A stretch of 64,000 nt of DNA from NCBI RefSeq assembly GCF_015751905.1, contig NZ_JADOUF010000001.1:1860001-1924000 (forward strand), read 5' to 3'. The notes beneath the pieces were generated by a model. That model worked only from the letters and a program-made list of their open reading frames with translations. It had not been told where the DNA came from and searched no databases. Within the stretch, counting starts at the first letter, position 1, and each line of letters opens with the position of its first letter. The DNA is from Longispora fulva. Lineage in GTDB: Bacteria; Actinomycetota; Actinomycetes; Mycobacteriales; Micromonosporaceae. The position numbers and the translations under genes are program-made. Below are positions 2,079 through 16,226 of the stretch, in pieces.

Positions 2079-2089
2079 GCGAACCTCCC

Positions 2090-2416: not shown

Positions 2417-2432
2417 CCGGGTACCACCTCTC

Positions 2433-2942
2433 TCAGTCGACTGCGCGTACCGCCAACAGACGGACGCGGACCGTCACGTCCGGGTGGACCCGGAGCATCA
2501 GGATCCTCGGCGGGTCGATCCCGAAGTCGCGGACGTCGAAGGCCCGCTCCCCCGTGATCTCCACCGTGTCGGGGTCGGGGAAGACGACCAGCACCTCGCC
2601 GTCGACCGTCCGGGTCACCCCGTGGAACGTCAGATCGCCGCGCACCCGGTAACCGCCGGCCGTCGCGGTGACCTCCCGGACCTCCGCCGTGATCTCCGGG
2701 TACCGGCGGGCGTCCACCCGGCGCAGCAGTTCGCCGTCGTAGAGCCGGTTGCCGGACCGCAGCCGACCGACCGCCAGCCGGAGCCGGCCGGTGGGCCGCG
2801 GTTCCAGGAGCACCGTGCCGCCGTCGACCTCCAGGTCCAGCGCGCCGGTCACCCCGTCGGCCTCGCCGTGGATCGGGTGCACGCTGGTCCGCGCGTCGAT
2901 CCACACCCGGGAGCGGTCCGGCAGGATCCGGAAGGTCGCCAC
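2433..2942 (-). CDS. YceI-like lipocalin-fold protein in hydrogenase operon
   Basis: The 169 residues resemble the YceI family, small beta-barrels that bind polyisoprenoid or quinone-like lipids. Supporting segments are ILPDRSRVWIDARTSVHPIHG near the N-terminus, the central GDLTFHGVTRTVDGEV strand pair (the family's usual 'G.LTI.GVT..V' motif) and a terminal string of beta strands ending MLRVHPDVTVRVRLLAV. There is no signal peptide, so it should be cytoplasmic, unlike E. coli YceI. The start is GTG at 2942, four nt after the stop of the small membrane-peptide gene. Its place inside a hydrogenase operon suggests a role with the electron acceptor or with assembly, but that is inference; the family assignment is fairly safe. 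Confidence 0.8.
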   Translation of the reverse strand: MATFRILPDRSRVWIDARTSVHPIHGEADGVTGALDLEVDGGTVLLEPRPTGRLRLAVGRLRSGNRLYDGELLRRVDARRYPEITAEVREVTATAGGYRVRGDLTFHGVTRTVDGEVLVVFPDPDTVEITGERAFDVRDFGIDPPRILMLRVHPDVTVRVRLLAVRAVD

Positions 2943-2946
2943 CGGC

Positions 2947-3051
2947 TCACATCCGGCGGATCCGCAGGTACCGCCGGATGTCGGGTAACGCGAGCACCAC
3001 GGCCACGACCGCGCCGGCGAGCACCACGCCGGCCACCACCCGTCCCATCAT
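2947..3051 (-). CDS. 34-residue single-span membrane peptide
   Basis: A short ORF sits exactly between hupD and the YceI-like gene. It starts ATG ATG (3051 or 3048); the first ATG forms ATGA with the hupD stop, and GGGGGAG lies 7 nt upstream. The product is MMGRVV, then a hydrophobic stretch (AGVVLAGAVVAVVLAL), then PDIRRYLRIRRM, a strongly basic tail that should stay in the cytoplasm. It resembles the tiny actinobacterial proteins labelled DUF6893 that I recall from such clusters. The size, coupling on both sides and clean membrane-peptide design argue that it is translated. It could tether the hydrogenase or a maturation factor to the membrane; function is unknown. Confidence 0.7.
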   Translation of the reverse strand: MMGRVVAGVVLAGAVVAVVLALPDIRRYLRIRRM

Positions 3052-3560
3052 CGGACTCCCCCTCTCGTGTGATCCTCTGCCGCCTCCGCGGCCAGGGCCC
3101 GGACCAGCAGCACCGCCTCGTCCACGGCCGCGGCGACGGGCGGGCTCAGGCCGATCCCGTCGCCCAGGTCCTCCGGTTCGCAGCCGACAAGCAGCACCCG
3201 GCCGATGTCGGCACCCATCCGGTGCAGCAGGGCCAGGACGGCGTCGGGCTGCATGCCGTGCGCGTCGAGCAGTACCTGCGGGGCGGACCCTGCCGGTGGT
3301 CCAGCCAACTCCGCCGACAGGTCCAGGGCGTAGACCGTGCCCGGGGGTTCGCCCCGCGACGTCGCGTCGACCAGGATCGCCGTGTCGTACCCGGACAGCA
3401 GCTCGTAGGCCAGGTGCACGCCCCGGATGCCGAAGTCCCCGACCTCGGCACCGGCGGGCAGGTCCCCTTCGGCGGTCAGCCTGCGGGCCACCTCGACCCC
3501 GAAGCCGTCGTCGCCGAGGAAGATGTTGCCGAGGCCGGCGACGAGCACCCGGGCGGTCAC
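3048..3560 (-). CDS. hupD: [NiFe]-hydrogenase maturation protease (HupD/HyaD family)
   Basis: This endopeptidase removes the C-terminal extension of the large subunit after nickel insertion. The 170 residues begin VTARVLVAGLGNIFLGDDGF with the family motif GxGNxxxxDDGxG. An Asp in LVDATSRGEPPGT and a His in LLDAHGMQP correspond to the Ni-sensing Asp and His of the HybD family, and the Glu in GFGVEVARR to the third. GCEPEDLGDGIGLSP near the C-terminus is also typical. The start is GTG at 3560, sharing GTGA with the upstream gene; the stop shares ATGA with the membrane-peptide gene. Its likely substrate is encoded at 6784-8571, which keeps a 21-residue tail after its last metal-site motif. Confidence 0.94.
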   Translation of the reverse strand: MTARVLVAGLGNIFLGDDGFGVEVARRLTAEGDLPAGAEVGDFGIRGVHLAYELLSGYDTAILVDATSRGEPPGTVYALDLSAELAGPPAGSAPQVLLDAHGMQPDAVLALLHRMGADIGRVLLVGCEPEDLGDGIGLSPPVAAAVDEAVLLVRALAAEAAEDHTRGGVR

Positions 3561-4948
3561 GGGGACACCCCGTCCGGTCGCAAGGGTTCGACCTCGTCCG
3601 GGGAGAAGTACAGGTATCGGCCGTGCCAGCGGTGCAGGTCCGCCGCCGGGTCGTCGTCGAGGGTGACGGCCAGGTAGCGCACGTCGTCCACGTCGAGGAG
3701 CACGGCCTCGACCGTGGCGTCGCGGCCGGCGAGGAAGATGTCCTGCGCGTCGGAGCGGCGTGCGCCCGGACGCAGCCGGACCCGGGTGCCCCTGGCCACG
3801 GCGACCCCGGCGACGGTGACGCTGTCGCGGTCCGGGTCCACGGCGGCGTCGGCGGCCGGGTCCCACCACGGGGCGGCGCCCGGGTCGAAGAGGCCGACCT
3901 GGGCGGTGGCGGAGGCGCGGTCGTGGGTCGGGGACGTGGTGCGGCGTAGGTAGCGGACCGCGCCGTGCAGCCGGTCCAGGACCTCGGCCGGCATCGTGTC
4001 GACCCGGTCCAGGATCGCCGCCGCCCGGTCGTCGGTGGCCCGCGCCTCCCGCTTCTCCGCGTCGGTGAGCGTCATCGTGCGCAGGGTCAGGATCTCGTCG
4101 ATCTCCAGCGCGTCGAACAGGTCCCCTGGGCTCTCCGGGGCGATGTGCGGGTGGTCGTACAGGATGATCGGGGAGGACAGGACGACCTCGTGGCCGGGTT
4201 CGCCGACGAGTACCGGATAGGTGTGTTCGTTGTGGCACGACGCCGCCGCCGGCCGGGCCCACTCCGGGGGTTCCAGAAGCGACACGAAGGTGCCGTTGCC
4301 AGCGGCGAGCAGGGTGTGCGCGGAGATCAGGGCGCGGCGCAGCGCCCGGTCCCGCCCGGGACGGCCGTCCCCCGCGGAGGCGTTGGCGACCCGGACCCGG
4401 AGCTTGAGCAGGCCGTACGGGCCGTCGAACCGCTCGGCGGACACATGCACGTCCAGCCGGACCGGCCACCGGCGCCGGACCAGCCGGCCGACCTCCGCAC
4501 CGGTGGCGTCGAGGACGGGTTCCACGTCGCGGCCCTCGGGGACGTCGAACCGGATCACCCGCTCCTCGTCGAGCAGGTCGTGCACCGACAGCGCGGCGTC
4601 GCACTGCCGGTCGACGGCCTCCTCCCAGGTGAGCACGTCGCGGCCGTCGACCGGCAACGACTCGACGGGTACGTACCCCGCCGGGTCGCGGCGCTCGACG
4701 GTGCGCGCCTGGAGCTGCAGGAACCGCACCCGCAGCCGCACGGTCGCGTCCGGGCGGGGTTCCAGCAGGCACTCGGTGACCGCGGCCGACGGCTCGCCGC
4801 TGGCCTCGGCGTAGCGGGGCGGGACGAGGACCCCGAACTGCCAGCGGGCCTGGTTCTTGGCCGCCGACGCCCGGTACGGGTACAGCAGGTACCCCTCGTA
4901 GAGCACGGCGTCGGCGACCCGCAGGGCCGCGTCGAACACGTCGGTCAC
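3557..4948 (-). CDS. Conserved hydrogenase-cluster protein of unknown function (463 aa)
   Basis: I do not recognise a functional family. The protein has 463 residues, no signal peptide and no membrane span. It begins VTDVFDAALRVADAVLYEGY and ends in a small beta-rich module (RVRLRPGARRSDAQDIFLAG, then YLAVTLDDDPAADLHRWHGR, YLYFSPDEVEPL). The segments HNEHTYPVLVGE and LSSPIILYDHPHIAPESPGD look like conserved surface or active-site loops rich in His, Asp and Glu. The start is GTG at 4948, coupled as GTGA to the gene before, and the stop couples to hupD. In actinomycete group 1h loci I recall such a long unannotated ORF between the DUF6084-like gene and the protease, so a role in assembly or electron transfer of this hydrogenase type is the best guess. 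Confidence 0.8.
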   Translation of the reverse strand: MTDVFDAALRVADAVLYEGYLLYPYRASAAKNQARWQFGVLVPPRYAEASGEPSAAVTECLLEPRPDATVRLRVRFLQLQARTVERRDPAGYVPVESLPVDGRDVLTWEEAVDRQCDAALSVHDLLDEERVIRFDVPEGRDVEPVLDATGAEVGRLVRRRWPVRLDVHVSAERFDGPYGLLKLRVRVANASAGDGRPGRDRALRRALISAHTLLAAGNGTFVSLLEPPEWARPAAASCHNEHTYPVLVGEPGHEVVLSSPIILYDHPHIAPESPGDLFDALEIDEILTLRTMTLTDAEKREARATDDRAAAILDRVDTMPAEVLDRLHGAVRYLRRTTSPTHDRASATAQVGLFDPGAAPWWDPAADAAVDPDRDSVTVAGVAVARGTRVRLRPGARRSDAQDIFLAGRDATVEAVLLDVDDVRYLAVTLDDDPAADLHRWHGRYLYFSPDEVEPLRPDGVSP

Positions 4949-5586
4949 GGCGCGGCTCCCTCGTGTTCGCCCAGCAGGGTCTCCACGGTCTCGTCCCAGC
5001 CGGTCAGCGCCGCCCGGGACCGGTAGTTCTGCAGGGCGCTGAGCGTGTCGCGGCGCAGCCGGATCCAGCCCTCGCCGGGGAAGTACCGGTCCATCAGGTC
5101 GCGCCAGACGGCGACCGGCAGCCGGTAGCGGGCCTCGTGGTGCCACGGGACCTGCTCCACGGACAGACCGCCCGGGCCGGTGGTGAACACCGTGCCGCTG
5201 AACAGGAACAACAGCGGGATCTCCCCGTCGTCGAGGGCGTGGAAGTACTTGGCGGCGGCGACGTCGAAGTCGTAGGTCACCGGCACGGCCAGGGTCACGT
5301 CCGTGGTGTCAGCGAAGCCGGCGACCAGGGTCGAGCTCTGGGCGAACTGGAGCGGTAGGAGGGTCTCGCCCCACCGGGCCGGCTCGCCGAACACGTCGTT
5401 GAGCAGTTCCGTCTCGGCCGGGGCGTAGTGCCGGCCCCGGGGTTCGATCCGCAGCTGGCAGCGCAGGGCCAGGGTGTGCACCCGGACGCCGGTGGACTCG
5501 CCGATCCGCAGGGTGAACAGGAGCGTGGGCGCCACGCCGTGGGGCTCGGGCCGGGCGTCGACGCAGGCGAAGGACAGGTCGCTCAT
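4945..5586 (-). CDS. DUF6084-like protein of the hydrogenase operon
   Basis: The 213-residue protein has unknown function and begins MSDLSFACVDARPEPHGVAP. It is beta-rich, with the segments LLFTLRIGESTG, VRVHTLALRCQLRIEPRGR and LAVPVTYDFDVAAAKYFHAL, and ends with an acidic WDETVETLLGEHEGAAP. I recall this family as DUF6084, restricted to actinobacteria and found beside DUF5947 in hydrogenase clusters; that label is memory, not a search. Cys residues are few, so it is unlikely to bind an Fe-S cluster itself. Both ends overlap neighbours by ATGA and GTGA, which suggests tight stoichiometry with the flanking proteins. Confidence 0.75.
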   Translation of the reverse strand: MSDLSFACVDARPEPHGVAPTLLFTLRIGESTGVRVHTLALRCQLRIEPRGRHYAPAETELLNDVFGEPARWGETLLPLQFAQSSTLVAGFADTTDVTLAVPVTYDFDVAAAKYFHALDDGEIPLLFLFSGTVFTTGPGGLSVEQVPWHHEARYRLPVAVWRDLMDRYFPGEGWIRLRRDTLSALQNYRSRAALTGWDETVETLLGEHEGAAP

Positions 5587-6200
5587 CCGGTGCCCACCAC
5601 CCGGCTGCGGGCGCGCAGGTCGGTGAAGAAGGTGTCGATCGCCGCCCACGCCTCGGTGCCACCGTCGAAGCCCTTCCAGTGCGTGCGGACCAGGCCGACG
5701 AGGCGGTAGCACGCGTCGATCGGGACCAGGAAGCACTCGAACCCGTCGGCGGTCCGGCGGACCAGGACGGCCTCCACGTCGTCGGCGGCCGGCGGCAGGT
5801 GCGGGTTGGCGGCCAGCACCCGGTCCCAGGAGTCCACGTCCAGCAGGGACTCCGTCGCGCCGGCCGGGCTCGGGTAGAACGCGACCGGGCGGCCCAGCGC
5901 GGAGTTGCGGAAGAAGAACGCCATCCGGACGGGGATCCGCAGCACCTCCCAGTCCGCGTCGGTGAGCACGAAACCGGCGGCGCGCACGTACCGGTCGGGC
6001 ACCCTGCGGTACCGGCCGCCCGCCGCGCCCTCCAGCGCGAACAGCGAGGCGCAGTCCGGGCAGGCGCACAGCAGGCCCCGGTTCTCGGTGTCCACGACGT
6101 GCGGGTGCCCGGCGAGCAGGGTCCTGGCGCACATCTCGCAGCGTTCCACCCGGGGCGTCGCCGGCAGGGGCGCGCGGAACCGGCGTAGTCCCGTGGTCAT
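5583..6200 (-). CDS. DUF5947-like double-CxxC protein of the hydrogenase operon
   Basis: The 205 residues carry two Cys pairs near the N-terminus: ERCEMCART and, about 25 residues on, LLCACPDCASLF. The spacing suits a zinc ribbon or a rubredoxin-like iron site. The rest is a compact alpha/beta domain (DWEVLRIPVRMAFFFRNSAL, RVLAANPHLPPAADDVEAV). I recall it as DUF5947 from actinobacterial hydrogenase loci. An upstream in-frame ATG at 6224 exists, but the ATG at 6200 overlaps the NifU-like stop as ATGA and is preferred. A redox or metal-delivery role is possible; rubredoxin-like HupI of other hydrogenase operons also carries two CxxC motifs, but sequence similarity to it is not evident. Confidence 0.78.
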   Translation of the reverse strand: MTTGLRRFRAPLPATPRVERCEMCARTLLAGHPHVVDTENRGLLCACPDCASLFALEGAAGGRYRRVPDRYVRAAGFVLTDADWEVLRIPVRMAFFFRNSALGRPVAFYPSPAGATESLLDVDSWDRVLAANPHLPPAADDVEAVLVRRTADGFECFLVPIDACYRLVGLVRTHWKGFDGGTEAWAAIDTFFTDLRARSRVVGTG

Positions 6201-6772
6201 GGCCGCGCCCCGGGTACAGGGCATTCCAGGCCGGACAAGGGCAGGTCGGGGAGCCTGGCCGCGACGTACCCGGGAGTGGGTTGGATCTGGAGGAGGTTTC
6301 CGCCGACCGGGGGCGGTGCCACGGTGCCCTCGACGTCGACCCGGGTCACCTCCGGCGCGGCCCGGCGCACCGCTGTCTCGATCGCCGTCGTCGCGGTGAC
6401 CGTGGACGACGGGCAGCCGTGGCAGGTGCCTTCCAGCCGGAGCCGGACCACGCCGTCGTCGTCCACGCCGAGGAGTTCCACGCCCCCGGCGTGCGAGCCG
6501 AGGTAGGGCCGGACCTCCTCCAGGGCGGCCGTTACCCGCTGCGTCGTGTCCCGCGGGTGCAGGTCGTGCACGACGAGCAGTTCGGACACCACGGGGTCGG
6601 CGGCGAGCCGTTCCAGGACCCCGGTGTCGCGGGCCACGGCGGCGATCCGGGTCAGGGCCTCGCCGTAGAGGCCGACGAGCAGGCGGACCAGCTCGTCGGC
6701 GCGCGCCGGGTCGGTGCTTTCGGCGACCAGCCGCTCGATCCGGGTACCGGTGGCCCCGACGTCATAGGTCAC
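6197..6772 (-). CDS. NifU-like Fe-S scaffold/carrier protein
   Basis: A 191-residue protein whose central part is a NifU C-terminal (Nfu) domain: ALEEVRPYLGSHAGGVELLG, then VRLRLEGTCHGCPSSTVTAT, where CxxC within GxCxGCxxS is the labile [4Fe-4S] ligand motif. An alpha-helical N-terminal part of about 90 residues precedes the domain. A tail of about 40 residues includes APPPVGGNLLQIQPTPG. Translation starts at GTG 6772 behind GGAGGG, 11 nt after the large-subunit gene. It probably supplies or repairs Fe-S clusters for the many cluster-binding Cys residues of the small subunit encoded two genes upstream. Confidence 0.88.
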   Translation of the reverse strand: MTYDVGATGTRIERLVAESTDPARADELVRLLVGLYGEALTRIAAVARDTGVLERLAADPVVSELLVVHDLHPRDTTQRVTAALEEVRPYLGSHAGGVELLGVDDDGVVRLRLEGTCHGCPSSTVTATTAIETAVRRAAPEVTRVDVEGTVAPPPVGGNLLQIQPTPGYVAARLPDLPLSGLECPVPGARP

Positions 6773-6783
6773 GTGCCCTCCGC

Positions 6784-8571
6784 TCAGACGGCGTTCATCA
6801 TCGTGGGCGAGTGCATCTTCTGTAGCGTCTTGCCGTCGCCGAGGTACATGTGCACTCCGCAGGGCAGGCACGGGTCGAAGCTGCGGACGGCGCGCATGAT
6901 GTCGATGCCCTTGAAGTTCTCCGGCGTGTTCTCCTCGAAGATCGGCGTGTTCTGCACCGCGTCCTCGTACGGCCCCGGCGTGCCGAACGAGTCGCGCACG
7001 CTGCCGTTCCACGGCGTCGGCGGGTACGGGTGGTAGTTGGCGATCTTCCCGTCCCGGATGACCATGTGGTGCGACAGGACGCCCCGCACGGCCTCGGTGA
7101 AGCCGACGCTGACCGCCTCGTCGGGCACGGTGAACGGCGACCAGGTGTCGGTGCGCCCGGCCCGGATCTCGACCAGCGCCTTCTCGACGAAGTGCAGGGC
7201 GGCGGCGGCCATGTACGCCTGGAAGTACGTCCGGGCCCGGTTGCGTTCGATGGCGTTGCTCCACTGCGGGATCTTCCACTCGAAGCTGACCTCGGGCTTG
7301 GTCATGGTCCTCGGCAGGTTGATCTGCACGCTGTGCCCGGTGGACACGACGTACCCGCCGATGTTCACCAGGCCTGCCAGGGCCGTGGACCACAGCCGGG
7401 CGATCGGACCGCCGCCGGTGTCCAGGGCCAGGTGGTCGGTGCCGTCGAACCAGCGCGGCGACATCACCCAGCTGTAGTTGTCGCCGAAGTCGCGCTTCTG
7501 CGGGTGCGGGATGGTGTGCTGGTTCCACGGGTGCCGGGGGTCGACCGGGTTGCCCAGCGGGTCGTGGGTGACGAACTGCTCGCGGCCGACCCAGTCGTCG
7601 TAGTAGGAGCTGCCCAGCAGGATCCGGATGCCCAGGTTGATGTCCACGAGATCGGTGGTCACCAGCCTGCCGTCGACCACGACCCCGGGGGTGACGAACA
7701 TCTTCCGGCCCCAGTTGGTCATGTTCTCGTACTTGAAGTCGCAGTGCTCCGGGTCGTTCAGGCTCCCCCAGCAGCCGAGGAGCACCCGGCGGCGGCCGAC
7801 CTCCTCGTAGCCGGGCAGCGCCTGGTAGAAGAAGTCGAACAGGTCGTCGTGCATGGGGACGACCTTCTTCATGAACTCCACGTAGCGCATCAGCCGGGAC
7901 AGGTAGTCGGTGAACAGCTGGATGGTGGCCACGGTGCCCACGCCGCCCGGGTACAGGGTGGAGGGGTGCACGTGGCGGCCCTCCATCAGGCAGAACATCT
8001 CCCGGGTCATCCGCGACACCTGCAACGCCTCGCGGTAGAACTCGCCCTCGAGCGGGTTGAGCGAGCGCATGATGTCGGCGATCGTCCGGTAGCCGTGCTC
8101 GGCGGCGTGCGGCGAGGCCGTGTTCTCTGCGAGCGCGAGGACGCCCGGGTTGGTCTCCTTGACCATCTTCTCGCAGTAGTCGACGCCGACCAGGTTCTCC
8201 TGGAAGATGTTGTGGTCGAACATGTACTCGGCCGACTCGCCCAGGTTGATGATCCACTCGGCGAGGTGGGGCGGGCGTACCCCGTAGGCCATGTTCTGGT
8301 TGTAGACCGAGCATGTGGCGTGGTTGTCCCCGCAGATGCCGCAGATCCGGCTCGTGATGAAGTGCGCGTCGCGCGGATCCTTGCCCTTCATGAAGATGCT
8401 GTAGCCCCTAAACACCGATGAGGTGCTGTAGCACTCGGCGACGGTCTTGTTCGCCCAGTCGATCTTCGTGTAGATGCCGAGGCTGCCGACGATCCGGGTG
8501 ATCGGGTCCCAGGCCATCTCGATGAGACCGTCGCCGGGCCGTTCGGGCGCCTTCCGCGTGGTACTGGTCAT
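6784..8571 (-). CDS. hhyL: Group 1h [NiFe]-hydrogenase large subunit
   Basis: The catalytic subunit holding the NiFe(CN)2CO site. In its 595 residues, the L1 motif RICGICGD lies at 75-82 (Cys77, Cys80) and the L2 motif DPCLPCGVH at 566-574 (Cys568, Cys571). These are the four metal-site Cys. After His574 come 21 residues (MYLGDGKTLQKMHSPTMMNA and a final Val), presumably removed by the protease encoded at 3048-3560. Features such as WDPITRIVGSLGIYTKID and the pairing with an Asp-ligand small subunit place it in group 1h (former group 5), used for oxidation of atmospheric or trace H2. Start ATG at 8571 overlaps the small-subunit stop (ATGA). The gene symbol follows the hhyL usage in Streptomyces. 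Confidence 0.96.
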   Translation of the reverse strand: MTSTTRKAPERPGDGLIEMAWDPITRIVGSLGIYTKIDWANKTVAECYSTSSVFRGYSIFMKGKDPRDAHFITSRICGICGDNHATCSVYNQNMAYGVRPPHLAEWIINLGESAEYMFDHNIFQENLVGVDYCEKMVKETNPGVLALAENTASPHAAEHGYRTIADIMRSLNPLEGEFYREALQVSRMTREMFCLMEGRHVHPSTLYPGGVGTVATIQLFTDYLSRLMRYVEFMKKVVPMHDDLFDFFYQALPGYEEVGRRRVLLGCWGSLNDPEHCDFKYENMTNWGRKMFVTPGVVVDGRLVTTDLVDINLGIRILLGSSYYDDWVGREQFVTHDPLGNPVDPRHPWNQHTIPHPQKRDFGDNYSWVMSPRWFDGTDHLALDTGGGPIARLWSTALAGLVNIGGYVVSTGHSVQINLPRTMTKPEVSFEWKIPQWSNAIERNRARTYFQAYMAAAALHFVEKALVEIRAGRTDTWSPFTVPDEAVSVGFTEAVRGVLSHHMVIRDGKIANYHPYPPTPWNGSVRDSFGTPGPYEDAVQNTPIFEENTPENFKGIDIMRAVRSFDPCLPCGVHMYLGDGKTLQKMHSPTMMNAV

Positions 8572-9623
8572 CGCGCGCTGCCTTTCGGACGCTGGTATCC
8601 GGTGTCGAGATCGGGGCCGGTGTGCCGCCAGTGCGGTTCCTTGTCGAGGGTGCGGGCCGTGAAGCCGCGCAGGAAGCGCACCATCCCGCCCGAGACGTTG
8701 CTGACCTTCGACGACACCTTCGCGCCCGGCGGCTCGTCCATGAACGGCATGAACTTGTCCGGGAACCCCGGCATCGTGCAGCCGATGCAGATCCCGCCCA
8801 CGTTGGGGCAGCCGCCGATGCCGTTGATCCAGCCGCGTTTGGGCACGTTGCACTTGACGACCGGGCCCCAGCAGCCGAGCTTGACGATGCACTTCGGGGA
8901 GCCGTACTCCGTGGCGAACTGGCCCTGCTCGTAGTACCCGGCACGGTCGCAGCCCTCGTGCACGGTCGCGCCGAACAGCCACCGCGGGCGAAGGTGCTCG
9001 TCCAGCGGGATCATCGGGGCCTGGCCGGTGGCCTGGTAGAGCAGGTAGAGGATCGTCTCGGACAGGTTGTCGGGCTGGATCGGGCAGCCGGGCACGCACA
9101 CGATCGGGATGCCGGCCTTCGACGTCCACTCCCAGCCGAGGTAGTCGGGCACGCCCATCGCCCCGGTCGGGTTACCGGCCATGGCGTGGATGCCGCCGTA
9201 CGTCGCGCAGGTGCCCACCGCGAGGACCACCAGCGCCTTCGGGGCGAGGCGGTCCAGCCACTCGCTCGTGGTCATGGGCTGGCCGGTGGCGGGGTTGTTG
9301 CCGAAGCCGCACCAGTACCCCTCGTCCTTGATCGCTTCGTTGGGGATCGACCCCTCGACGACCAGCACGAACGGCTCCAACTCGCCCCGGTCGGCCTTGT
9401 GGAACCACTCGATGAAGGTGTCGGCGCCGGTCTCCGGGCCGCACTCGTAGTCGATGAGCGGCCAGTGCACCGCCACTTTCGGCAGCCCCGGCAACGCGCT
9501 GAGCGCGATCTCCTCGATGCTCGGCTGGGTCGCCGCCGTCAGGGCCACCGAGTCGCCGTCGCAGCTCAGGCCGGCGTTGATCCACAGAATGTGGACGACC
9601 GGGTCCTCTGTCAGTGTCGCCAT
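8568..9623 (-). CDS. hhyS: Group 1h [NiFe]-hydrogenase small subunit
   Basis: The electron-transfer subunit with three Fe-S clusters; 351 residues from ATG 9623. The proximal-cluster motif reads LSCDGDS (Cys21, Asp24), where ordinary uptake hydrogenases have CxxC. The remaining ligands are Cys139 (VGTCATYGG) and Cys180 (VPGCPIQP). This Cys3Asp pattern is established for the actinobacterial hydrogenase structure from Ralstonia and goes with oxygen insensitivity. VHEGCDRAG, LGCWGPVVKC, GGCPNVGG and ICIGCTMPGF carry the medial and distal ligands. There is no Tat signal peptide and no C-terminal anchor, so the enzyme should be cytoplasmic or peripheral. The stop of the upstream SIS gene overlaps as TGATG; a GTG at 9626 is an alternative start. 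Confidence 0.96.
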   Translation of the reverse strand: MATLTEDPVVHILWINAGLSCDGDSVALTAATQPSIEEIALSALPGLPKVAVHWPLIDYECGPETGADTFIEWFHKADRGELEPFVLVVEGSIPNEAIKDEGYWCGFGNNPATGQPMTTSEWLDRLAPKALVVLAVGTCATYGGIHAMAGNPTGAMGVPDYLGWEWTSKAGIPIVCVPGCPIQPDNLSETILYLLYQATGQAPMIPLDEHLRPRWLFGATVHEGCDRAGYYEQGQFATEYGSPKCIVKLGCWGPVVKCNVPKRGWINGIGGCPNVGGICIGCTMPGFPDKFMPFMDEPPGAKVSSKVSNVSGGMVRFLRGFTARTLDKEPHWRHTGPDLDTGYQRPKGSAR

Positions 9624-10345
9624 CACACCTCACCCCCAGGGAGATGTCGTACTCGCGCCGCGGGCCGGGAGCCCGGGTCGCCGTGCGTGGGGAGGTCGCG
9701 CCGTGCGGGCAGCTGGTCGACGACCAGCTGCCACAGGACGTGGTAGAGGGTGGTCTGGGCCTCCTGGATCCGGTGCACCGAGGCGGACGGCACCACGAAA
9801 AGGTGGTCGATGGTGTCCAGCTCTGCCATCACGCCGCCCTGCCCGCCGGCGAGGCCCACGGTGCGCAGCCCGCGCCGGGCCGCCTCGTCGAACGCCCGGA
9901 CCAGGTTCTCGGAGTTGCCGCTGGTCGACAGGCCCAGGGCGATGTCACCGGGCCGGCCGAACGCCGCGATCTGCCGGGCGAACACCACCTCGAAACCGAC
10001 GTCGTTGGACAGCGCGGTCACGACGGCCACGTCGCTGGTCAGAGCGATGGCCGGCAGGGGACGGCGCCCGCCGCCCGGATGCATGAACAGCGTCGCCACG
10101 TCCTGGGCGTCGGTGCAGCTGCCGCCGTTGCCGAACGCGAGCAGCCGCGCGCCGGTCGCGAACGCCACGGCCAGGTCGTGCGCGCACGCGAGCAGCCGGT
10201 CGCCGTCGCGGGCGAACAGGGCGTGCCGCAGGGCCGTGATCTCCCGGGTCTTGTCGACCGTCGACTGCCGGACGGCGGCGAGGACGGACTGCAGGTCGCC
10301 GCTGGTGGCGTACAGGAACGGGTACAGGGCCTCGATCGACGTCAT
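9623..10345 (-). CDS. SIS-domain protein (GmhA-like), hydrogenase operon copy 2
   Basis: A 240-residue sugar-isomerase-fold protein similar to phosphoheptose isomerase GmhA. Phosphosugar-binding segments are LLAFGNGGSCTDAQDVATLF and LGLSTSGNSENLVRAFDEA, the usual GNGGSxxDAQ and STSGNS motifs. Here, by family knowledge, the Ser/Thr residues bind phosphate. The active-site Glu/His of GmhA cannot be confirmed by eye. It is coupled by ATGA to the short HypC-like gene and by TGATG to the hydrogenase small subunit, so it is an integral operon member and not a heptose gene. Its role with a hydrogenase is unknown. The last 25 residues are a basic, Pro-rich tail. Confidence 0.88.
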   Translation of the reverse strand: MTSIEALYPFLYATSGDLQSVLAAVRQSTVDKTREITALRHALFARDGDRLLACAHDLAVAFATGARLLAFGNGGSCTDAQDVATLFMHPGGGRRPLPAIALTSDVAVVTALSNDVGFEVVFARQIAAFGRPGDIALGLSTSGNSENLVRAFDEAARRGLRTVGLAGGQGGVMAELDTIDHLFVVPSASVHRIQEAQTTLYHVLWQLVVDQLPARRDLPTHGDPGSRPAARVRHLPGGEV

Positions 10346-10605
10346 GGCGTGGCCGCCTGTTCGGCGAGGACGGCGTCGGTCGCACGCGCGGGGGCCTCGT
10401 CCTCGCGTGGGAGGACCGCGATGGCCTCTTTCGCGTGCACCAGGACGGTGTCGCCGACCCTGGCGGTGACCAGGGCGACGCTGACCTCCTCCAGGTCCCC
10501 GCCGCCCGGGTCGACCAGGGCCAGCCCGTCGTCGAGGAGCTCGGCGATCCGGACCGGCACCGCCTGGTCGGAGCACGTGACGCAGACGTCGTCGTGGCAG
10601 TTCAC
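10342..10605 (-). CDS. Short divergent HypC/HupF-like protein
   Basis: An 87-residue protein with the small beta-barrel pattern of HypC (AVPVRIAELLDDGLALVDPG, then VALVTARVGDTVLVHAKEAI). Its N-terminus differs: it begins VNCHDDVCVTCSDQ, with Cys at 3, 8 and 11, and lacks the MCLGIPG signature. One of these Cys may replace the catalytic Cys2 of HypC. It starts at GTG 10605, forming GTGA with the preceding SIS gene, and its stop forms ATGA with the following SIS gene. It could be a chaperone specialised for group 1h large subunits, working beside the canonical HypC at 2090-2416. Confidence 0.78.
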   Translation of the reverse strand: MNCHDDVCVTCSDQAVPVRIAELLDDGLALVDPGGGDLEEVSVALVTARVGDTVLVHAKEAIAVLPREDEAPARATDAVLAEQAATP

Positions 10606-11222
10606 GACACCACCGCCGGGCCCAGAAGTCCCGGCTGCTCCAGGAAGACGTGGGTCAGTTCCCACAGGATGTGGTACGTCGTCACGTGCACCTCCTTGAC
10701 CACCCGCGGATCGCCGGACCGGGCCACCAGGGCGTGCGCGACGGCCGGGCTGACCGCGAGCGCCCCGCCGTCCCCGCCGGTGAGCGCGACGGTGAGCAGC
10801 CCGAGCCGGTGCGCCTCCTCCAGGCCGCGCCGCACGCTCGCGCACCGGCCGTCGGCGGAGATGCCGAGCGCGATGTCGCCCGGGTCGGCGAGCAGGCCCA
10901 GTTGCAGGGCGAACACCTCGTCGAGGCCCTCGTGGTCGGCGATGCCGGTGAGGGTGGCCACGTCGGCCGTCAGCGACAGTGCGGGCAGGGCCCGCTTCCC
11001 GACGATCACCGGGTGGACGAACTCGACGGAGACGTGCTGGGCGTCGGTGGCCCGCGGGCCGGTGCCGAAGACGATCAGTTTGCCGCCGCCGTGGAACCGG
11101 GCGGCCATCGCGTGGCAGGCCCCGGCGACCAGGGCCGCGTCGGCCGCCAGGTCCTCGACCGGGGCGTCCCGCTCGGCGAGTAGCCCGGTGAGGACGGACG
11201 CCGACGACGATGGTTGAGCCAT
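10602..11222 (-). CDS. SIS-domain protein (GmhA-like), hydrogenase operon copy 1
   Basis: First gene of the hydrogenase operon; 206 residues with the SIS fold. Motif equivalents are KLIVFGTGPRATDAQHVSVE and LGISADGRCASVRRGLEEA. Compared with the copy at 9623-10345, the GNGGS loop has become GTGPR and the STSGNS loop SADGRC, so the residues that normally grip phosphate are largely lost. It may therefore be a regulatory or structural partner, with the other copy binding a sugar phosphate. The chosen ATG (11222) has GAGGAAGG upstream; a longer reading to 11324 is open but has no better start. Confidence 0.82.
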   Translation of the reverse strand: MAQPSSSASVLTGLLAERDAPVEDLAADAALVAGACHAMAARFHGGGKLIVFGTGPRATDAQHVSVEFVHPVIVGKRALPALSLTADVATLTGIADHEGLDEVFALQLGLLADPGDIALGISADGRCASVRRGLEEAHRLGLLTVALTGGDGGALAVSPAVAHALVARSGDPRVVKEVHVTTYHILWELTHVFLEQPGLLGPAVVS

Positions 11223-11359
11223 CGCAAGCCTTCCTCGCAGGGGCATGACCCCTCGGCGGACATGGCCACTGCGATTCGTGCAGCTCAGGCGATAATATCG
11301 ACGAAATCCGGCCAAGGGGCGCAAACCGAGATTGCGACCGGAGCGTCCGATTCGGTGGG
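11223..11359 (-). promoter_or_regulatory. Leader/promoter region of the hydrogenase operon
   Basis: The 137 bp before the first SIS gene contain no ORF I would call. They include the locally AT-rich word GATAATATCG (about 11291-11300); on the minus strand its complement gives TATTAT, a possible -10 element about 70 bp from the ATG. I see no convincing -35 at normal spacing. As the only sizeable gap at the head of fifteen coupled genes, it is the obvious place for control of the operon. Confidence 0.4.
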
Positions 11360-12025
11360 TCAGCGATGCCGGGAGCAGTACTCGACGTGCAGTTCGGCGA
11401 ACGGACGGCGGCGGTCGGTCCCGGCCCTTCCCATCAGGATCTCCGCGCAGCAGTGCGTGTCGGGAACCTGCGCGATGTGCGCCGGGCAGTCCTCGGCGAG
11501 AGTCCGGATCTGCTCGCCCGCCAGCTCGAACGCCGCCCGGCTGCCGGTCAGGAACAACGTGTCGGCGGCGACATCCCAGCGCAGGTGGTCACGGAACCCG
11601 CGGTGGTGTCTCCGGTCGTGGGCCGCCGGCCCGAGTGCCGGGAGCACGGAGGACGGCAGTGTCACCTGGTGCGGGGTGCCGGGGCCGAGTCGGGCGCGGA
11701 CGTCCTTCCACCGCGACACCGGAAACGCGAGGCTGTGGTGCAGCAGTACGAGGTCGAGCGGGAGTTGACCGGGCTCCCGCTCGCTGTCGGGACGGGCGGC
11801 GCGGAGCGGCAGGTGGACCAGAGTGTGCGGCGAGCGGGCCGCGAGGGCCCAGGCCATCGCGAGATCGACCGTGGCGGCCTTGTCGACGGTGAGCTGCGCG
11901 CCGAGCCGGCCCTCGTAAAGCATCGCGTGCCGGATCGGACGGGCCGGCCTCAGGACGCGGTACTCTCGCGGCCCCAACCGCACCGTGTCGATCACCGTCC
12001 GCCAGGTCACATCCGCCAACCGCAC
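11360..12025 (-). CDS. Hypothetical protein, unknown function
   Basis: I do not recognise this 221-residue protein. It starts at GTG 12025 (product MRLADVTWRTVIDTVRLGPR) behind GGAGGGGG. There is no signal peptide or membrane span. A patch of His and Arg (AAHDRRHHRGFRDHLRWDV) lies in the middle and a double Cys (DTHCCAEILM) near the C-terminus. It lies on the same strand 137 bp upstream of the hydrogenase operon, so it is probably transcribed separately. Composition matches its neighbours; no sign of transfer. Confidence 0.65.
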   Translation of the reverse strand: MRLADVTWRTVIDTVRLGPREYRVLRPARPIRHAMLYEGRLGAQLTVDKAATVDLAMAWALAARSPHTLVHLPLRAARPDSEREPGQLPLDLVLLHHSLAFPVSRWKDVRARLGPGTPHQVTLPSSVLPALGPAAHDRRHHRGFRDHLRWDVAADTLFLTGSRAAFELAGEQIRTLAEDCPAHIAQVPDTHCCAEILMGRAGTDRRRPFAELHVEYCSRHR

Positions 12026-12042
12026 CCGTTGCCCCCTCCGTC

Positions 12043-12075
12043 GGCCGCCCCGGACTGTAGACGGCCGGGGCGGCC
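12043..12075 (-). terminator. Hairpin after the rmlB-like gene
   Basis: A perfect 11-bp inverted repeat: GGCCGCCCCGG (12043-12053) pairs with CCGGGGCGGCC (12065-12075) around an 11-nt loop. It begins 14 nt past the stop of the dehydratase gene and before the start of the next minus-strand gene, so it fits a GC-rich actinobacterial terminator without a T tract. Confidence 0.6.
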
Positions 12076-12088
12076 GGGGGCGAGCGGG

Positions 12089-13078
12089 TTACGTCCAGGC
12101 GTTCTCGTTCACGGCCGCGCGGTCGAGGAGGGGCCGCCACCAGGCCTGGTTCTCCGCGTACCAGGTCACCGTGTCGGCCAGGCCGCTGTCGAAGTCCACG
12201 GCCGGCGCCCAGCCCAGCTCGGTGCGCAGCCGGCTGGAGTCCAGCAGGTAGCGGCGGTCGTGGCCGGGCCGGTCGGGCACCGTCTCCACCTGGGTGCGGG
12301 GCAGGCCGAGCTGGTCGAGGATCCGGGTGGCCAGGTCGGCCACGCTGGCCTCCACCCCGGAGCCGATGTTGTACGTCTCCCCCACTCGCCCGTCGGCGAG
12401 CACCCGGTCGATCGCCGAGCAGTGGTCGTCCACGTGCAGCCATTCGCGGCGGTTGGCGCTGGACGCATACACCGGCAGGGGCAGGCCCGACAGTGCCCGG
12501 CTGACGAACAGGGGGATGACCTTCTCCGGGAACTGGTACGGGCCGTAGTTGTTCGCGCAGTTGGAGATGGTCACGGGCAGGCCGAACGTCTCGTGGTAGG
12601 CGCGCACCGCGTGGTCGGCCCCGGCCTTGCTGGCGTTGTAGGGGGTGCGCGGACGGTACGGCGATTCCTCCGTGAAAGCGCCGGGGTCGTCGAGGGCCAG
12701 GTCGCCGTACACCTCGCAGGTGGAGACGTGGTGGAACCTGGCCACGCCGACCCGCCGGCAGGCCTCGAGGAGGCGCTGGGTGCCGAGCACGTTGGTGCGG
12801 AAGAACAGCTCCGGGTCGAGGACGGCGAGGCTGTTGTGCGACTCGGCGGCGAAGTTGACCACCACGTCGATCCGGTGCTCGCGGAGCAGGGCCTCCACGA
12901 CGGGCAGGTCGCCGATGTCGGCGTGCGCGAAGGTCAGAGCCGGGTCGAGGTTGGCGGCGTTGCCGGCGTAGGTGAGGGCGTCGAGGGCGAGGATGTGGTC
13001 GGCGGGGTGGGTGCTGGCCCAGTACCGGGTGAAGTTGGTGCCGATGAAGCCGGCCGCGCCGGTGATCAGGATGTTCAT
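12089..13078 (-). CDS. dTDP-glucose 4,6-dehydratase-like SDR enzyme
   Basis: A 329-residue extended SDR of the RmlB type, which converts dTDP-glucose to dTDP-4-keto-6-deoxyglucose. The Rossmann motif TGAAGFIGTNF is at residues 6-16, NFAAESHNS at 75-83, and YNASK at 147-151 (catalytic Tyr and Lys). NCANNYGPYQFPEKVIPLFV and NRREWLHVDDHC are hallmarks of RmlB. One oddity: the RmlB catalytic triplet Thr-Asp-Glu reads Thr120-Cys121-Glu122 here (VSTCEVYGDL). The start ATG follows AAGGACGG and lies 8 nt after the GntR gene, so the two form an operon. No other deoxysugar gene is adjacent. Substrate may differ from the textbook enzyme because of the Asp-to-Cys change. Confidence 0.85.
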   Translation of the reverse strand: MNILITGAAGFIGTNFTRYWASTHPADHILALDALTYAGNAANLDPALTFAHADIGDLPVVEALLREHRIDVVVNFAAESHNSLAVLDPELFFRTNVLGTQRLLEACRRVGVARFHHVSTCEVYGDLALDDPGAFTEESPYRPRTPYNASKAGADHAVRAYHETFGLPVTISNCANNYGPYQFPEKVIPLFVSRALSGLPLPVYASSANRREWLHVDDHCSAIDRVLADGRVGETYNIGSGVEASVADLATRILDQLGLPRTQVETVPDRPGHDRRYLLDSSRLRTELGWAPAVDFDSGLADTVTWYAENQAWWRPLLDRAAVNENAWT

Positions 13079-13086: not shown

Positions 13087-13842
13087 TTACGCGATGGGTG
13101 TCATGCCGGGTGGGTCGGTGGCCGCCGTGCCCGGCCAGCCACGGAACTCCACGTCGAGGCGGAACCGGTGGCCCAGGTAGCGGTGTTCGGACAGTGCGAG
13201 GGGCCGGGAGTCGGCCAGCAGCGCCAGCCGGCGGACCAGGAGCACCGGGGTGCCCTCGGCGACGTCGAGGAGCGGCGCCACGGTGGCGCTGGCGGCGGTC
13301 GCGGCGATGCTCTGCCGGACGACGTCGATGTCGTGGCCGTTGCGGCGCAGGGTCTCCCATACGCCCGGGTCCTCGGCGTCGGCCCGGCTGACCGGGGCGG
13401 CGAATTCGAGGGGCACCCACTCGGTGACGACGTCGAGCGGGTGCGAGCCGGCGAACCGCACGGCCTGCACCCGCAGGGTCTCCACCTGCCCGAGCAGCCG
13501 GGCCACGTCCGCCGGGGCCGGGCGGTACTCGTAGCCGGAGACCCGGCGGATGAGGGGCACGCCGGCCTCGGACACCGCCGAGCCGGCGTGCTGGAAGCTG
13601 CCGAGCGCGATGGACTGGCCGAACGAGGCCCCGGAGATGACGAACCAGCCGGAGCCCCGCCGGGCCGCGATCAGCCCCTCGTCGCGGAGCTGTTCGAGGG
13701 CCCGGCGGACGGTGACCCGGCTGACGTCGTGCCGGCGGCCGAGTTCGGCCTCGCTCTCCAGGCCACCGGAGGCGGCGTAGTCGCCGAGGGAGATGCGTTC
13801 GCGCAGCTCGGCGGCGAGCCGGAGGAACCGTGGACCTGTCAT
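13087..13842 (-). CDS. GntR-family regulator with UTRA (HutC-type) effector domain
   Basis: 251 residues from ATG 13842 (MTGPRFLRLAAELRERISLG). The winged helix-turn-helix includes SEAELGRRHDVSRVTVRRAL and a wing with GSGWFV. The C-terminal UTRA domain includes the usual ALSEHRYLGHRFRLDVEF ending. An in-frame start 45 nt earlier is possible, but it would place the candidate operator inside the gene. It precedes the dehydratase gene by 8 nt and follows the TmpAB-like fusion by 54 nt, so it may control either. The UTRA domain usually binds a small phosphorylated or amino-group ligand. Confidence 0.88.
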   Translation of the reverse strand: MTGPRFLRLAAELRERISLGDYAASGGLESEAELGRRHDVSRVTVRRALEQLRDEGLIAARRGSGWFVISGASFGQSIALGSFQHAGSAVSEAGVPLIRRVSGYEYRPAPADVARLLGQVETLRVQAVRFAGSHPLDVVTEWVPLEFAAPVSRADAEDPGVWETLRRNGHDIDVVRQSIAATAASATVAPLLDVAEGTPVLLVRRLALLADSRPLALSEHRYLGHRFRLDVEFRGWPGTAATDPPGMTPIA

Positions 13843-13847
13843 GGATT

Positions 13848-13858
13848 TGTATCGTACA
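13848..13858. promoter_or_regulatory. Candidate GntR operator TGTA-N3-TACA
   Basis: The palindrome TGTATCGTACA lies 6 nt upstream of the ATG of the GntR gene. Its arms TGTA and TACA around three bases fit the general GntR half-site layout. Short, so chance is possible, but the position suits autoregulation. Confidence 0.4.
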
Positions 13859-13896
13859 GGTGGCGTCAGATATCGCAAGACCACCATGCAGGTGTA

Positions 13897-15468
13897 CTAG
13901 TAGCGCAGCACCCGCTCCAGTACCGGGCGGAAGTGGGCGAAGTCCCTGGTCAGGGCCTCCGGGTCCTTCGCCTCGTCGTCCCACCGGCGCAGCGCCACGG
14001 CCGCCATCGCGTGCGGCCCCGCCTCGAACTCGGCGACCTCCCCGGCGGACATCGGCCCGCCCTGCACGCCGAGGGTGTACACCGAGGCCTCGGACAGCCG
14101 GCCGAGATACTCCGGCTGCACCGCGCACAGGTACCGCTTCGCCGCGACGTGCAGCCGGACCGGCTCCGTGACGGCCGGCGGGAACCACCGGGCCAGCCAG
14201 TCCGCGCCGGTGTGGCTGTGCCGGTTGTCCGTGCCGGCCATCAGGTCCGCGCCGCTCACCTCGCCGGTGAAGTGCCCGACGTCGTGCAGCAGGGCCGCTG
14301 CGATCAGGGCGTCGGAGGCGCCGGCGGCCTCGGCGAGGGTCGCGGCCTGGATCATGTGGACGGCCTGGGTGACGGCCTCGCCCAGGTAGTCGGCGGCCCC
14401 GGCCCCGGCGAACAGGTCGGCCAGGGTGTCCAGGGGCGCGCGGCGGCGCAGGACGGCCAGGTCGCTGGCCACCGCGTCCAGGTCGGCGTAGCAGCCCTGC
14501 AGGTGCCGGGCGCCGCTCTCCGTGAACGCCGTGCGCGCGTGCAGCATCCGGGTGTTGTCGAAGACCAGGCAGTCGCCGGGTACGAGCCGGAAGTCCAGCC
14601 TGCCGGCGGGGCGCGCCAGGATCGCGGCGAACGCCCGGTACGCGGCGTAGAAGGCGACGAGCTCGTCGTGCGGGGCGCGCGGCGGTCGGGCCGAGCGGTT
14701 GTTGAACCGCACCTCCCGGATCCGGCCGCGCGGGTCGAGCCCGATCAGGGGACGGCTGGCGGTCAGCTCGGTGTCGGGGTCGGCGTACCGGAAGGTGACC
14801 GGGGTGCCGGCCAGGACCGAGAACGCCGCGGGGTCCTCGGTTCGGAGCAGGGCCGCCGCCGCGAAGCCGTCGACCAGCCCGGAGTCCCCACCGGTCGAGC
14901 CGTTGACCAGGCAGTGCAACAGCTGGACGGTGGGCACCGGGTCGCGGTACGGGTTGTCGGTGTGCGGGGCGATCGCCAGGCCCGTGAACGCGAGGTTGTG
15001 CGGGTTCTCCTCGACCCGGACCTCGAAGAGGGTGCCGTAGTTGGTCTCCCGGACGTACCCGAAGCCGCGCGCGACGTCGAGGACCTTCCGGTCGGCGGTG
15101 GGCACGTCGCGGAGCAGCACGAACCCGCGCAGCATGAGGGCGTCGAGCGCCGCGGTGCGGTCGGCCTGGAAATCGGCCCACGCGACCTCCGTGATCCGCA
15201 GGTCGAACTCCTTGCCGTCCTCGGTGCGGTCGTCGGGGGCTGGCGGGGCGAGCAGCCGGTCGCGGGCGTAGGTCGACACGTGCCCGTCGGGGGCGAAGGT
15301 GACGGTCACCGTGGTCCCGTCGTCGTGCGAGTCGGCCACGGCCAGGTCGGCGGGCAGGTCGGTGACGCCGAACAGTTTCTGGCCGCTGCGCGGGTCGGCG
15401 CACTCGGGGCAGCCGCAGTGGTCGCGGAGCCAGACGGCGGGGAGGGCGTGGCCGTCGAGGTACAACAT
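13897..15468 (-). CDS. TmpA-TmpB-like fusion: 2OG/Fe(II) oxygenase + HD-domain diiron oxygenase (phosphonate catabolism)
   Basis: 523 residues, two enzymes in one chain. Residues 1-345 are a gamma-butyrobetaine-hydroxylase-like oxygenase: N-terminal Zn-type LRDHCGCPEC (Cys18, 20, 23), then the Fe(II) triad His169-x-Asp171 (APHTDNPYRDP) and His310 (NTRMLHART), with Arg321 a likely 2-oxoglutarate ligand. Residues 355-523 are an HD-domain oxygenase like PhnZ and TmpB: YLGE (Tyr361, Glu364), His371, LLHDVGH (His395, Asp396), His417, His440 and Asp497/498. This spacing follows the PhnZ ligands as I recall them. TmpA hydroxylates 2-(trimethylammonio)ethylphosphonate and TmpB cleaves it to glycine betaine and phosphate. 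Here both steps would be joined. Start ATG 15468 forms TGATG with the upstream GntR gene. Substrate is inferred, not shown. Confidence 0.88.
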   Translation of the reverse strand: MLYLDGHALPAVWLRDHCGCPECADPRSGQKLFGVTDLPADLAVADSHDDGTTVTVTFAPDGHVSTYARDRLLAPPAPDDRTEDGKEFDLRITEVAWADFQADRTAALDALMLRGFVLLRDVPTADRKVLDVARGFGYVRETNYGTLFEVRVEENPHNLAFTGLAIAPHTDNPYRDPVPTVQLLHCLVNGSTGGDSGLVDGFAAAALLRTEDPAAFSVLAGTPVTFRYADPDTELTASRPLIGLDPRGRIREVRFNNRSARPPRAPHDELVAFYAAYRAFAAILARPAGRLDFRLVPGDCLVFDNTRMLHARTAFTESGARHLQGCYADLDAVASDLAVLRRRAPLDTLADLFAGAGAADYLGEAVTQAVHMIQAATLAEAAGASDALIAAALLHDVGHFTGEVSGADLMAGTDNRHSHTGADWLARWFPPAVTEPVRLHVAAKRYLCAVQPEYLGRLSEASVYTLGVQGGPMSAGEVAEFEAGPHAMAAVALRRWDDEAKDPEALTRDFAHFRPVLERVLRY

Positions 15469-16202
15469 CAGGATTTCTGCCTTTCGAGAACGCTGGCGGA
15501 GACGGAGTTGCGGATGGTGACGGCGACGGCGTCGCCCAGGTAGCGGTCCTCTGACCATTCGAGGGGTCGGCCGTCGGGGTCGGTGGCGCGGCGGCGTTCG
15601 CGGAGCAGCGGGGTGCCGGGGGCCGTGCCGAGCAGGTCGGCGTCCTCGTCGTCGGCGGGCACCGCGTCGAGGGTGTGTTCGGCGTGCGCGAAGACGATGC
15701 CGAGTTCCTCGAGGCGCTCGCAGATCGACTCGGTGTCGGTGTCGATGCCGGCGACCAGCGCGCCGATCCGTTCGACGTAGGCGGTGCGCTCGATCATCAC
15801 CGGCCGGCCGGACAGCAGCCGGACCCGGGTCAGGTGGTAGATCCGGTCCTCGCCGAGCGCCTCGCGCTCCCCCGGGCTGGCCTCGCGGCGGACGAGGGCG
15901 ACCTTGCGGCCGGCCGGCACCTCGCCGAGCGAGCGGGCCCACAGCGAGAAGCTGCGCAGTTCGGCGAAGCTCTGTACCCGGGGGGCCGCGAGCACGATCC
16001 GGCGGGCGCCCTGCTGGGAGGCGATCAGGCCGTCGGCGCGGAGCAGGGCGAACGTCTGGCGGACCGTGCCCCGGGACACGGCGTAGCGCTCGGCGAGTTC
16101 GCTCTCCGAGGGGAGCTTGGAACCCGGTGGGAAGGTGCCGTCGGTGATCGCGGCCCGGATCTCGGCCGCGAGGTCGCGGAATCTGGCTGACATGGCAGCC
16201 AT
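15468..16202 (-). CDS. GntR/UTRA regulator of the phosphonate oxygenase fusion
   Basis: 244 residues from ATG 16202; an ATG three codons later (16193) is an alternative. The DNA-binding domain shows SESELAERYAVSRGTVRQTF and a wing (SQQGARRIVLA). The UTRA domain ends with SEDRYLGDAVAVTIRNSVS. Its stop overlaps the start of the oxygenase fusion as TGATG, so the two are one transcript. PhnF-like GntR/UTRA proteins control phosphonate uptake and degradation genes in other bacteria, which fits. A perfect palindrome just upstream of the start is the expected operator, and implies autoregulation. Confidence 0.9.
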   Translation of the reverse strand: MAAMSARFRDLAAEIRAAITDGTFPPGSKLPSESELAERYAVSRGTVRQTFALLRADGLIASQQGARRIVLAAPRVQSFAELRSFSLWARSLGEVPAGRKVALVRREASPGEREALGEDRIYHLTRVRLLSGRPVMIERTAYVERIGALVAGIDTDTESICERLEELGIVFAHAEHTLDAVPADDEDADLLGTAPGTPLLRERRRATDPDGRPLEWSEDRYLGDAVAVTIRNSVSASVLERQKS

Positions 16203-16206: not shown

Positions 16207-16226
16207 CAACTTGGCTGACCAAGTTG
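16207..16226. promoter_or_regulatory. Perfect operator palindrome before gntR-tmpAB
   Basis: CAACTTGG (16207-16214) and CCAAGTTG (16219-16226) form a perfect 8-bp inverted repeat around CTGA. It starts 5 nt before the GntR start codon, where bound repressor would block initiation of transcription or early elongation of the two-gene operon. No second copy was seen upstream of other genes in the window. Confidence 0.75.

Follow-up and report, generated by a model that had tools for sequence, protein, structure and literature searches.

The stretch of Longispora fulva DNA analyzed here (64,000 nucleotides, hereafter the window) carries on its minus strand a tmpA-tmpB-like fusion gene flanked by two GntR/UTRA regulator genes, with a palindromic operator candidate upstream (Table 1). 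A preliminary description of this DNA had proposed that two oxygenases are fused in frame in one 523-residue protein with its own GntR/UTRA regulator coupled upstream, and both observations hold: the reading frame begins with ATG, ends in a stop codon that falls within its coordinates and encodes GBBH-like_N (residues 7-70), TauD (96-327; 4.6e-49) and HD (371-430) domains in that order, and the regulator's TGA and the ATG that starts the fusion overlap by one base. The second GntR/UTRA gene is possibly co-transcribed with the fusion; its sequence cluster does not reach the level of three or more loci among the tmpAB loci compared. Downstream of it, positions 10602-13078 encode a SIS-domain protein, a 221-aa protein that matches no Pfam family and an RmlB-like nucleotide-sugar dehydratase, genes in which no phosphonate link was seen, and a minus-strand gene run at 1-10605 resembles, judged by its translations, a cluster of [NiFe]-hydrogenase and accessory genes.

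Table 1. Features at the fusion locus, in window coordinates.
Feature	Position	Strand	Basis or remark
tmpA-tmpB-like fusion gene, 523 aa	13897..15468	minus	ORF, profile, PDB and residue comparison
N-half, TmpA-like Fe(II)/2OG hydroxylase, residues 1-344	14437..15468	minus	alignment columns
C-half, TmpB/PhnZ-type HD oxygenase, residues 336-523	13897..14463	minus	TIGR03276 and alignments
GntR/UTRA regulator gene, overlaps fusion start by 1 nt	15468..16202	minus	start ATG at 16202 or 16193
Second GntR/UTRA gene, 9 nt past fusion stop	13087..13887	minus	gene list, Pfam
Palindromic operator candidate AACTTGGCTGACCAAGTT	16208..16225		5 or 14 nt before GntR start codon

Both metal sites had been described as apparently complete, and every residue named for them is in place, by index and by alignment to PhnZ and TmpB. 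The iron site of the N-half consists of H169, D171 and H310 (checked by index and against PDB chains), and the HD site of the C-half comprises Y361, E364, H371, H395, D396, H399, H417, H440 and D497. Aligned with PhnZ, residues Y361, E364, H371, H395, D396, H417, H440 and D497 correspond to Y24, E27, H34, H58, D59, H80, H104 and D161, whose roles are set out in the accessible part of PMC7916636, and H399 is the retained counterpart of PhnZ H62. The last ligand had been given as Asp497/498; Asp497 is the ligand counterpart, and position 498 aligns instead with PhnZ Glu162. The HD half thus carries both the TIGR03276 family signature (H...HD...H...H...D) and the YxxE loop described for PhnZ and TmpB (PMC8177086, accessible text), and the ten HD-site residues examined are kept in 40/40 fused rows of the alignment. 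The halves adjoin nearly without a linker (YADLDAVASDLAVLRRRAPLDTLADLFAGAGAADYLGE), and because four genomes of the organism's own family encode the same fusion at 76, 75, 74 and 72% identity, a sequencing slip is discounted. A structure predicted from seven fused sequences reached a mean pLDDT of 72.2 and a pTM of 0.53, values at which the domain interface is left without a claim, and was poor near the N-half metal site (pLDDT 45-60 over residues 141-180); a Foldseek ranking with this model placed TmpA first, followed by BBOX, DfmD, TmpB and PhnZ.

Profile searches of both halves, a check that the preliminary description had proposed along with its TmpA-TmpB-like assignment, agree with that assignment, as do PDB searches, the tree and the arginine R258 discussed below. 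The N-half scored 400.1 bits against the TmpA model NF049936 (cut-off 400, a marginal pass by 0.1 bit), and a related fused copy (L126) scored 414.5 bits. The HD half passes the phosphonate HD oxygenase model TIGR03276 (223.2 bits; cut-off 214.6) and is filed as TmpB-like rather than as TmpB because its score against NF049941 was 216.5 bits (cut-off 300). By PDB sequence comparison the fusion matched TmpA (3e-84), TmpB (1.6e-48), human BBOX (5e-42) and PhnZ (about 1e-28). In a control scan of seven contrast rows (L026, L028, L032, L135, L137, L138 and L139), none passed the carnitine (BBOX) cut-off, the best reaching 373.6, and L032 passed the trimethyllysine dioxygenase model (280.8; cut-off 268.3). 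The TmpA model outranked the carnitine model in L026, L028 and L139 even though these lack the arginine (scores of 279-333, none reaching 400), so the rank of one model over the other is a weak, non-specific sign; the TmpA-like assignment of the N-half, a sequence-based one, is carried by score, arginine and tree together.

In TmpA the phosphonate is held by N187, N287 and R288, and human BBOX has only the two Asn (PMC9296572, accessible text). The counterparts in the fusion are, by alignment, N158, N257 and R258, and human BBOX carries Ala in the R258 column. Across the 85-row N-half alignment, Arg occupies this column in 71/71 rows paired with a TmpB-type HD protein (40/40 fused, 29/29 split and 2/2 reversed-fused) and in only 1/12 other rows, which indicates that it tracks the TmpB-type pair and not HD partners generally. 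Those 12 rows were first set apart by automatic pairing, which had found no HD partner for them; when their flanks were searched (over 1.4-4 kb for most sides, but 0.2-0.5 kb for one side of two rows), five proved to have a divergent HD gene next to them, namely L136 (Arg) and L028, L029, L030 and L050 (Gln), while the seven with no HD gene in the fetched stretch have Ala, Gly, His, His, Phe, Trp and Trp (Arg in 0/7). The idea that Arg marks any HD-partnered oxygenase was rejected on the strength of the four Gln rows, and an HD partner alone is therefore no proof of a 2-(trimethylammonio)ethylphosphonate (TMAEP) substrate.

The divergent pair at L028, L029, L030, L050 and L136 (L136:3926-5651), a TmpA-related oxygenase beside an HD protein, is an observation in its own right. 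Its HD protein keeps the six metal ligands and is without the YxxE loop and the stretch around PhnZ H62; the L028 oxygenase has His at two cage positions, and in L136 genes for choline-binding, choline dehydrogenase and aldehyde dehydrogenase proteins lie downstream.

Two further sets of N-half residues are shared with human BBOX. The columns Y144, F148, F161 and Y327 presumably form an aromatic cage, a role carried over from human BBOX; they are alike in 40/40 fused rows and read Y/F/Y/Y in Leisingera caerulea TmpA, with Tyr where the fusion has F161, and Y/W/Y/Y in human BBOX. Likewise, C18, C20, C23 and H63, which are taken to be a zinc site as in human BBOX, are kept in 40/40 fused rows and in human BBOX and are absent from L. 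caerulea TmpA. Such likeness to BBOX, which extends to the fold and the Fe site, together with an E-value of 7e-93 against the carnitine model TIGR02409, is what would be expected of a carnitine-metabolism hydroxylase of the gamma-butyrobetaine/trimethyllysine type joined to an unrelated HD hydrolase. That reading is nonetheless highly improbable: the N-half reaches only 311.5 bits and misses the carnitine cut-off of 414.75 by 103 bits, it has R258 where human BBOX has Ala, and the HD half, with its YxxE loop, scores above the phosphonate HD cut-off. The N-half tree (83 rows drawn from 111 tblastn rows, with 27 second copies and the non-duplicate fused locus L077 left out, plus TmpA and human BBOX as references) is divided by a 98/94 branch into two parts, one with the 40 fused, 29 split and 2 reversed-fused rows plus TmpA and L136, the other with human BBOX and the remaining 11 rows. 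Clustering with true gamma-butyrobetaine or trimethyllysine hydroxylases, which the preliminary description had named as grounds against its proposal, was thus not what was found: the N-half groups with neither human BBOX nor L032, in a comparison set without a bacterial protein over the carnitine cut-off.

The 523-aa protein is most likely a single-chain TmpA-TmpB that would release phosphate and glycine betaine from TMAEP or a near relative, a reading to which a probability of about 0.78 is assigned. In the first step, the N-half would use Fe(II), O2 and 2-oxoglutarate to hydroxylate the carbon next to phosphorus in TMAEP or a less methylated 2-aminoethylphosphonate, the cation being seated in the aromatic cage and the phosphonate gripped by N158, N257 and R258. 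In the second, a mixed-valent diiron HD site in the C-half would cut the C-P bond with a second O2; the products would be phosphate along with glycine betaine (or the glycine matching the substrate) and may serve as a source of phosphorus or betaine. The fusion gene would be the second in an operon headed by its own GntR/UTRA regulator acting on the palindromic operator, from which the phosphonate or a product would presumably free it. In the same genome, searches found no other carnitine-family oxygenase (next match 42 bits) and no C-P lyase PhnJ; searches for PEP mutase and PhnD-type proteins gave broad-family matches only, which are uninformative either way.

The closest characterized counterparts are TmpA and TmpB of L. 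caerulea (PDB 6NPB/6NPC and 6NPA), which have the same enzyme types, metal ligands, N/N/R counterparts and YxxE loop and align with the fusion in Foldseek at about 44% and 45% identity, but which are two separate proteins, with a TmpA that lacks the zinc-type CCC/H site of the fusion. Moreover, at the three annotated alphaproteobacterial loci compared that resemble tmpAB, a LysR-type gene adjoins the pair or lies close to it, where the fusion locus has GntR. In the PhnY*/PhnZ system, PhnZ shares the ligand set and YxxE loop with the HD half, again as separate proteins, and the HD half is closer to TmpB than to PhnZ. The fungal protein PhoF likewise combines the two oxidative steps of C-P cleavage in a single polypeptide; the HD half of the L. 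fulva protein agrees with the PhnZ-type part of its description, but the first half of PhoF is described as being of the PhnY type and that of L. fulva is of the TmpA/BBOX (TauD) type. The view in the preliminary description that the two steps are separate proteins in known systems must consequently be corrected, as PhoF of Fonsecaea multimorphosa is a published PhnY-PhnZ fusion acting on 2-aminoethylphosphonate (AEP) and 3-aminopropylphosphonate (PMC10574752, accessible text). A fused two-step C-P cleaving oxygenase is therefore already known, from a fungus, and was found described only there; no description of a bacterial or TmpA-type fusion was found in the open-access literature searched. 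The substrate range of PhoF also bears on whether the L. fulva protein carries out the same two-step chemistry on plain AEP or another aminophosphonate, in the manner of PhnY/PhnZ or PhoF. A PhnS/AepS-like transporter adjoining related loci and an HD half that passes the Phn-HD model and fails the TmpB model would fit this, but the betaine-hydroxylase type of the N-half with its full aromatic cage (40/40 fused rows), its pass of the TmpA model and the greater distance of PhnZ than of TmpB make this reading unlikely.

A survey for the same fusion in other actinomycetes, also proposed in the preliminary description, scored no more than the three or four top candidates in each genome, and all counts are hence lower bounds. 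The G352 (Streptomyces-type) family, here taken for Streptomycetaceae and with rows that mingle with Streptomyces and Kitasatospora in the N-half tree, had matches at 1e-30 in at least 109/394 genomes; the pair is fused in at least 85 (84 with one place across both halves and G767, judged from DNA) and tandem in at least 15, or present in either form in at least 100/394, and nine of the 109 are partial, broken or single-domain. In the own family at least 7/300 genomes matched, five fused (L. fulva included) and two tandem, with no match among the top candidates from G434, the one genus-mate listed. A phylum-wide sample matched in at least 26/396 genomes at 1e-20; within it the N-C fusion occurred in the L. 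fulva genome only, a tandem pair in G352 and reversed fusions in G263 and G069. A plasmid search matched 54 records, in eight of which a single place covered >80% of the query, each time as two pieces: L130-L134 and L140 are tandem genes, and H5 and H6 are listed with two separate genes. Separately, a tblastn impression of fusions in Candidatus Thioglobus (L015) and at L011-L014 and L016 was rejected, as these are tandem genes in different frames. Related bacteria keep the pair either on one chain or as two adjacent genes, and the L. fulva fusion accordingly appears to be a bacterial form of a known pathway.

The fused forms are not one clade. The L. fulva fusion and four fused relatives from its own family form a clade (100/99), tandem pairs of Nocardiopsis, Amycolatopsis and Kribbella fall between these and the Streptomyces fusions, and a single grouping of the 40 fused rows is rejected (p-AU 2.8e-71). 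The N-half tree requires five fused/split changes, four of them forced by starred branches; the HD-half tree is poorly resolved, and its starred branches force only two changes for the fused label. Because the outer branches of the N-half tree (alphaproteobacteria, Thioglobus and several actinobacteria) are split, repeated fusion is likelier than repeated splitting, though splitting and gene transfer may have played a part. In 17/29 split pairs the tmpA stop overlaps the closest tmpB start by 4 bases, and in nine more the overlap is 1, 7 or 8, counts that use the start codon nearest the stop and are biased towards short overlaps; a small indel at such an overlap would fuse tmpA and tmpB. The fusion may accordingly be incidental, the loss of a stop between overlapping tandem genes without channelling or kinetic gain, which would be compatible with a single-chain TmpA-TmpB. 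Besides these overlaps and the scatter of fused rows over the tree, the stability of the hydroxy intermediate speaks for this: the preliminary description had supposed that fusion would channel an unstable hydroxy-phosphonate, but (R)-1-hydroxy-TMAEP has been synthesized and recrystallized as a crystalline solid with a melting point of 269-272 C (PMC10590968, accessible text), so that protection of an unstable intermediate is without support. Two domain orders kept across many genomes suggest, conversely, some advantage, perhaps only fixed stoichiometry, and the odds that there is no channelling are put at even.

The L. fulva genome also contains a second, degenerate copy of the HD half (C1:2865545-2866104; L002, L003 and L150:9049-9555), in two pieces in different frames, 76% and 71% identical, the second with a TAG; YLGE reads YLDE, the stretch after the HD motif is altered, and the oxygenase half was not found alongside.

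The reversed fusions add a third domain. In G263 (L025/L129, 780 aa; L025:151-2493) an AlkP-type phosphodiesterase, HD and TmpA domains are joined in one frame, and L051:1-2384 from G069, a genome of a different family, has the same AlkP-HD-TmpA order in a protein truncated where the contig ends (the AlkP assignment comes from a PF01663 search for L025 and from inspection by eye for the N-part of L051). The phosphonate Arg and the HD ligands are intact in both proteins, and in Labrenzia AlkP (PF01663), HD and TmpA are three adjacent separate genes.

The regulator and operator were compared across 50 N-C loci (26 fused and 24 split, second copies left out). The upstream GntR/UTRA regulator belongs to a cluster, C1, that is present at 37/50 tmpAB loci, and a palindrome, AAGTTG-N6-CAACTT, precedes the oxygenase gene and at some loci also the transporter; its conserved form, AASTTG-N6-CAASTT, goes with the tmpAB-linked GntR gene. 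With outer bases free and within 350 nt upstream of an oxygenase, GntR or binding-protein gene, the palindrome was matched in 36/37 loci with C1 vs. 3/13 without (Fisher p 2.9e-7, shared ancestry ignored), and the 39 strict matches in 832 kb all lie, by the rows listed, at such upstream positions. The pattern was found after the fact, from word counts upstream of these same genes. In the window, AACTTGGCTGACCAAGTT matches with 0 mismatches, where 0.04 sites would be expected if up to 2 were allowed, and is the only perfect match in the 8.68-Mb genome; at up to 2 mismatches the genome has 12 places vs. 15 for a reversed-pattern control. The own-family relatives L110-L113 have neither the C1 regulator nor the palindrome.

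As for uptake, the preliminary description had seen no phosphonate ABC transporter in the window, and a reading of the 64-kb gene list likewise revealed none of phosphonate type, the binding protein and permeases at 39877-42831 being SBP_bac_1/BPD_transp_1. At 21/50 tmpAB loci (12 fused and 9 split), at least two components of a single ABC transporter are present. The adjoining binding protein at the L126 locus belongs to PF13343 and shows weak PhnS similarity, and the locus ATPase scored 398 bits against a PhnT2 cut-off of 457.7, the transporter falling under every 2-AEP equivalog cut-off; PF13343 is the Pfam family of the 2AEP transporter proteins AepX/AepS (PMC8316502, accessible text). The L. 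fulva genome itself encodes a complete PhnS/AepS-like ABC set at C1:5360934-5364697 (L147:6435-10198), about 3.5 Mb from the fusion, a homologue of the locus-linked transporter with a 66% identical binding protein. Upstream of this set, which lies at 5.36 Mb, stands a perfect palindrome, TGGTCTAGACCA, which is unlike the window operator and is taken to be DasR-type; given this different palindrome, the fusion and the transporter have no more than a suggested link. That this transporter and the window operon belong to one regulon was considered and found unsupported, as the palindrome is another one and operator matches are no commoner than in the control.

What is new, relative to the fungal fusion, is the presence of fused forms in at least 85/394 genomes of one family (15 tandem), their failure to form one clade in the tree, the AlkP-HD-TmpA order in two genomes, and, at other loci, a palindrome and GntR gene that the pair has in common with an adjacent PhnS/AepS-like transporter. 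Taken further, and tentatively, at slightly under even odds, oxidative phosphonate degradation in actinobacteria may have been packed into one chain several times and in both domain orders, as TmpA-HD in the Streptomyces family and the own family and as AlkP-HD-TmpA in two other lineages, where the triple fusion might convert a phosphonate ester fully into phosphate and glycine betaine, with GntR and the shared palindrome constituting a dedicated phosphonobetaine-use regulon.

The operator offers a handle for finding the regulon and testing the cargo of the linked transporter. If the proposed function is right, the fusion would be a single-gene biocatalyst for cleavage of choline-like phosphonates, close relatives that differ in having the fused or the split form would provide a natural experiment on what is gained from enzyme fusion, and oxidative cleavage of a choline-like phosphonate would be a common trait of the Streptomyces-type family.
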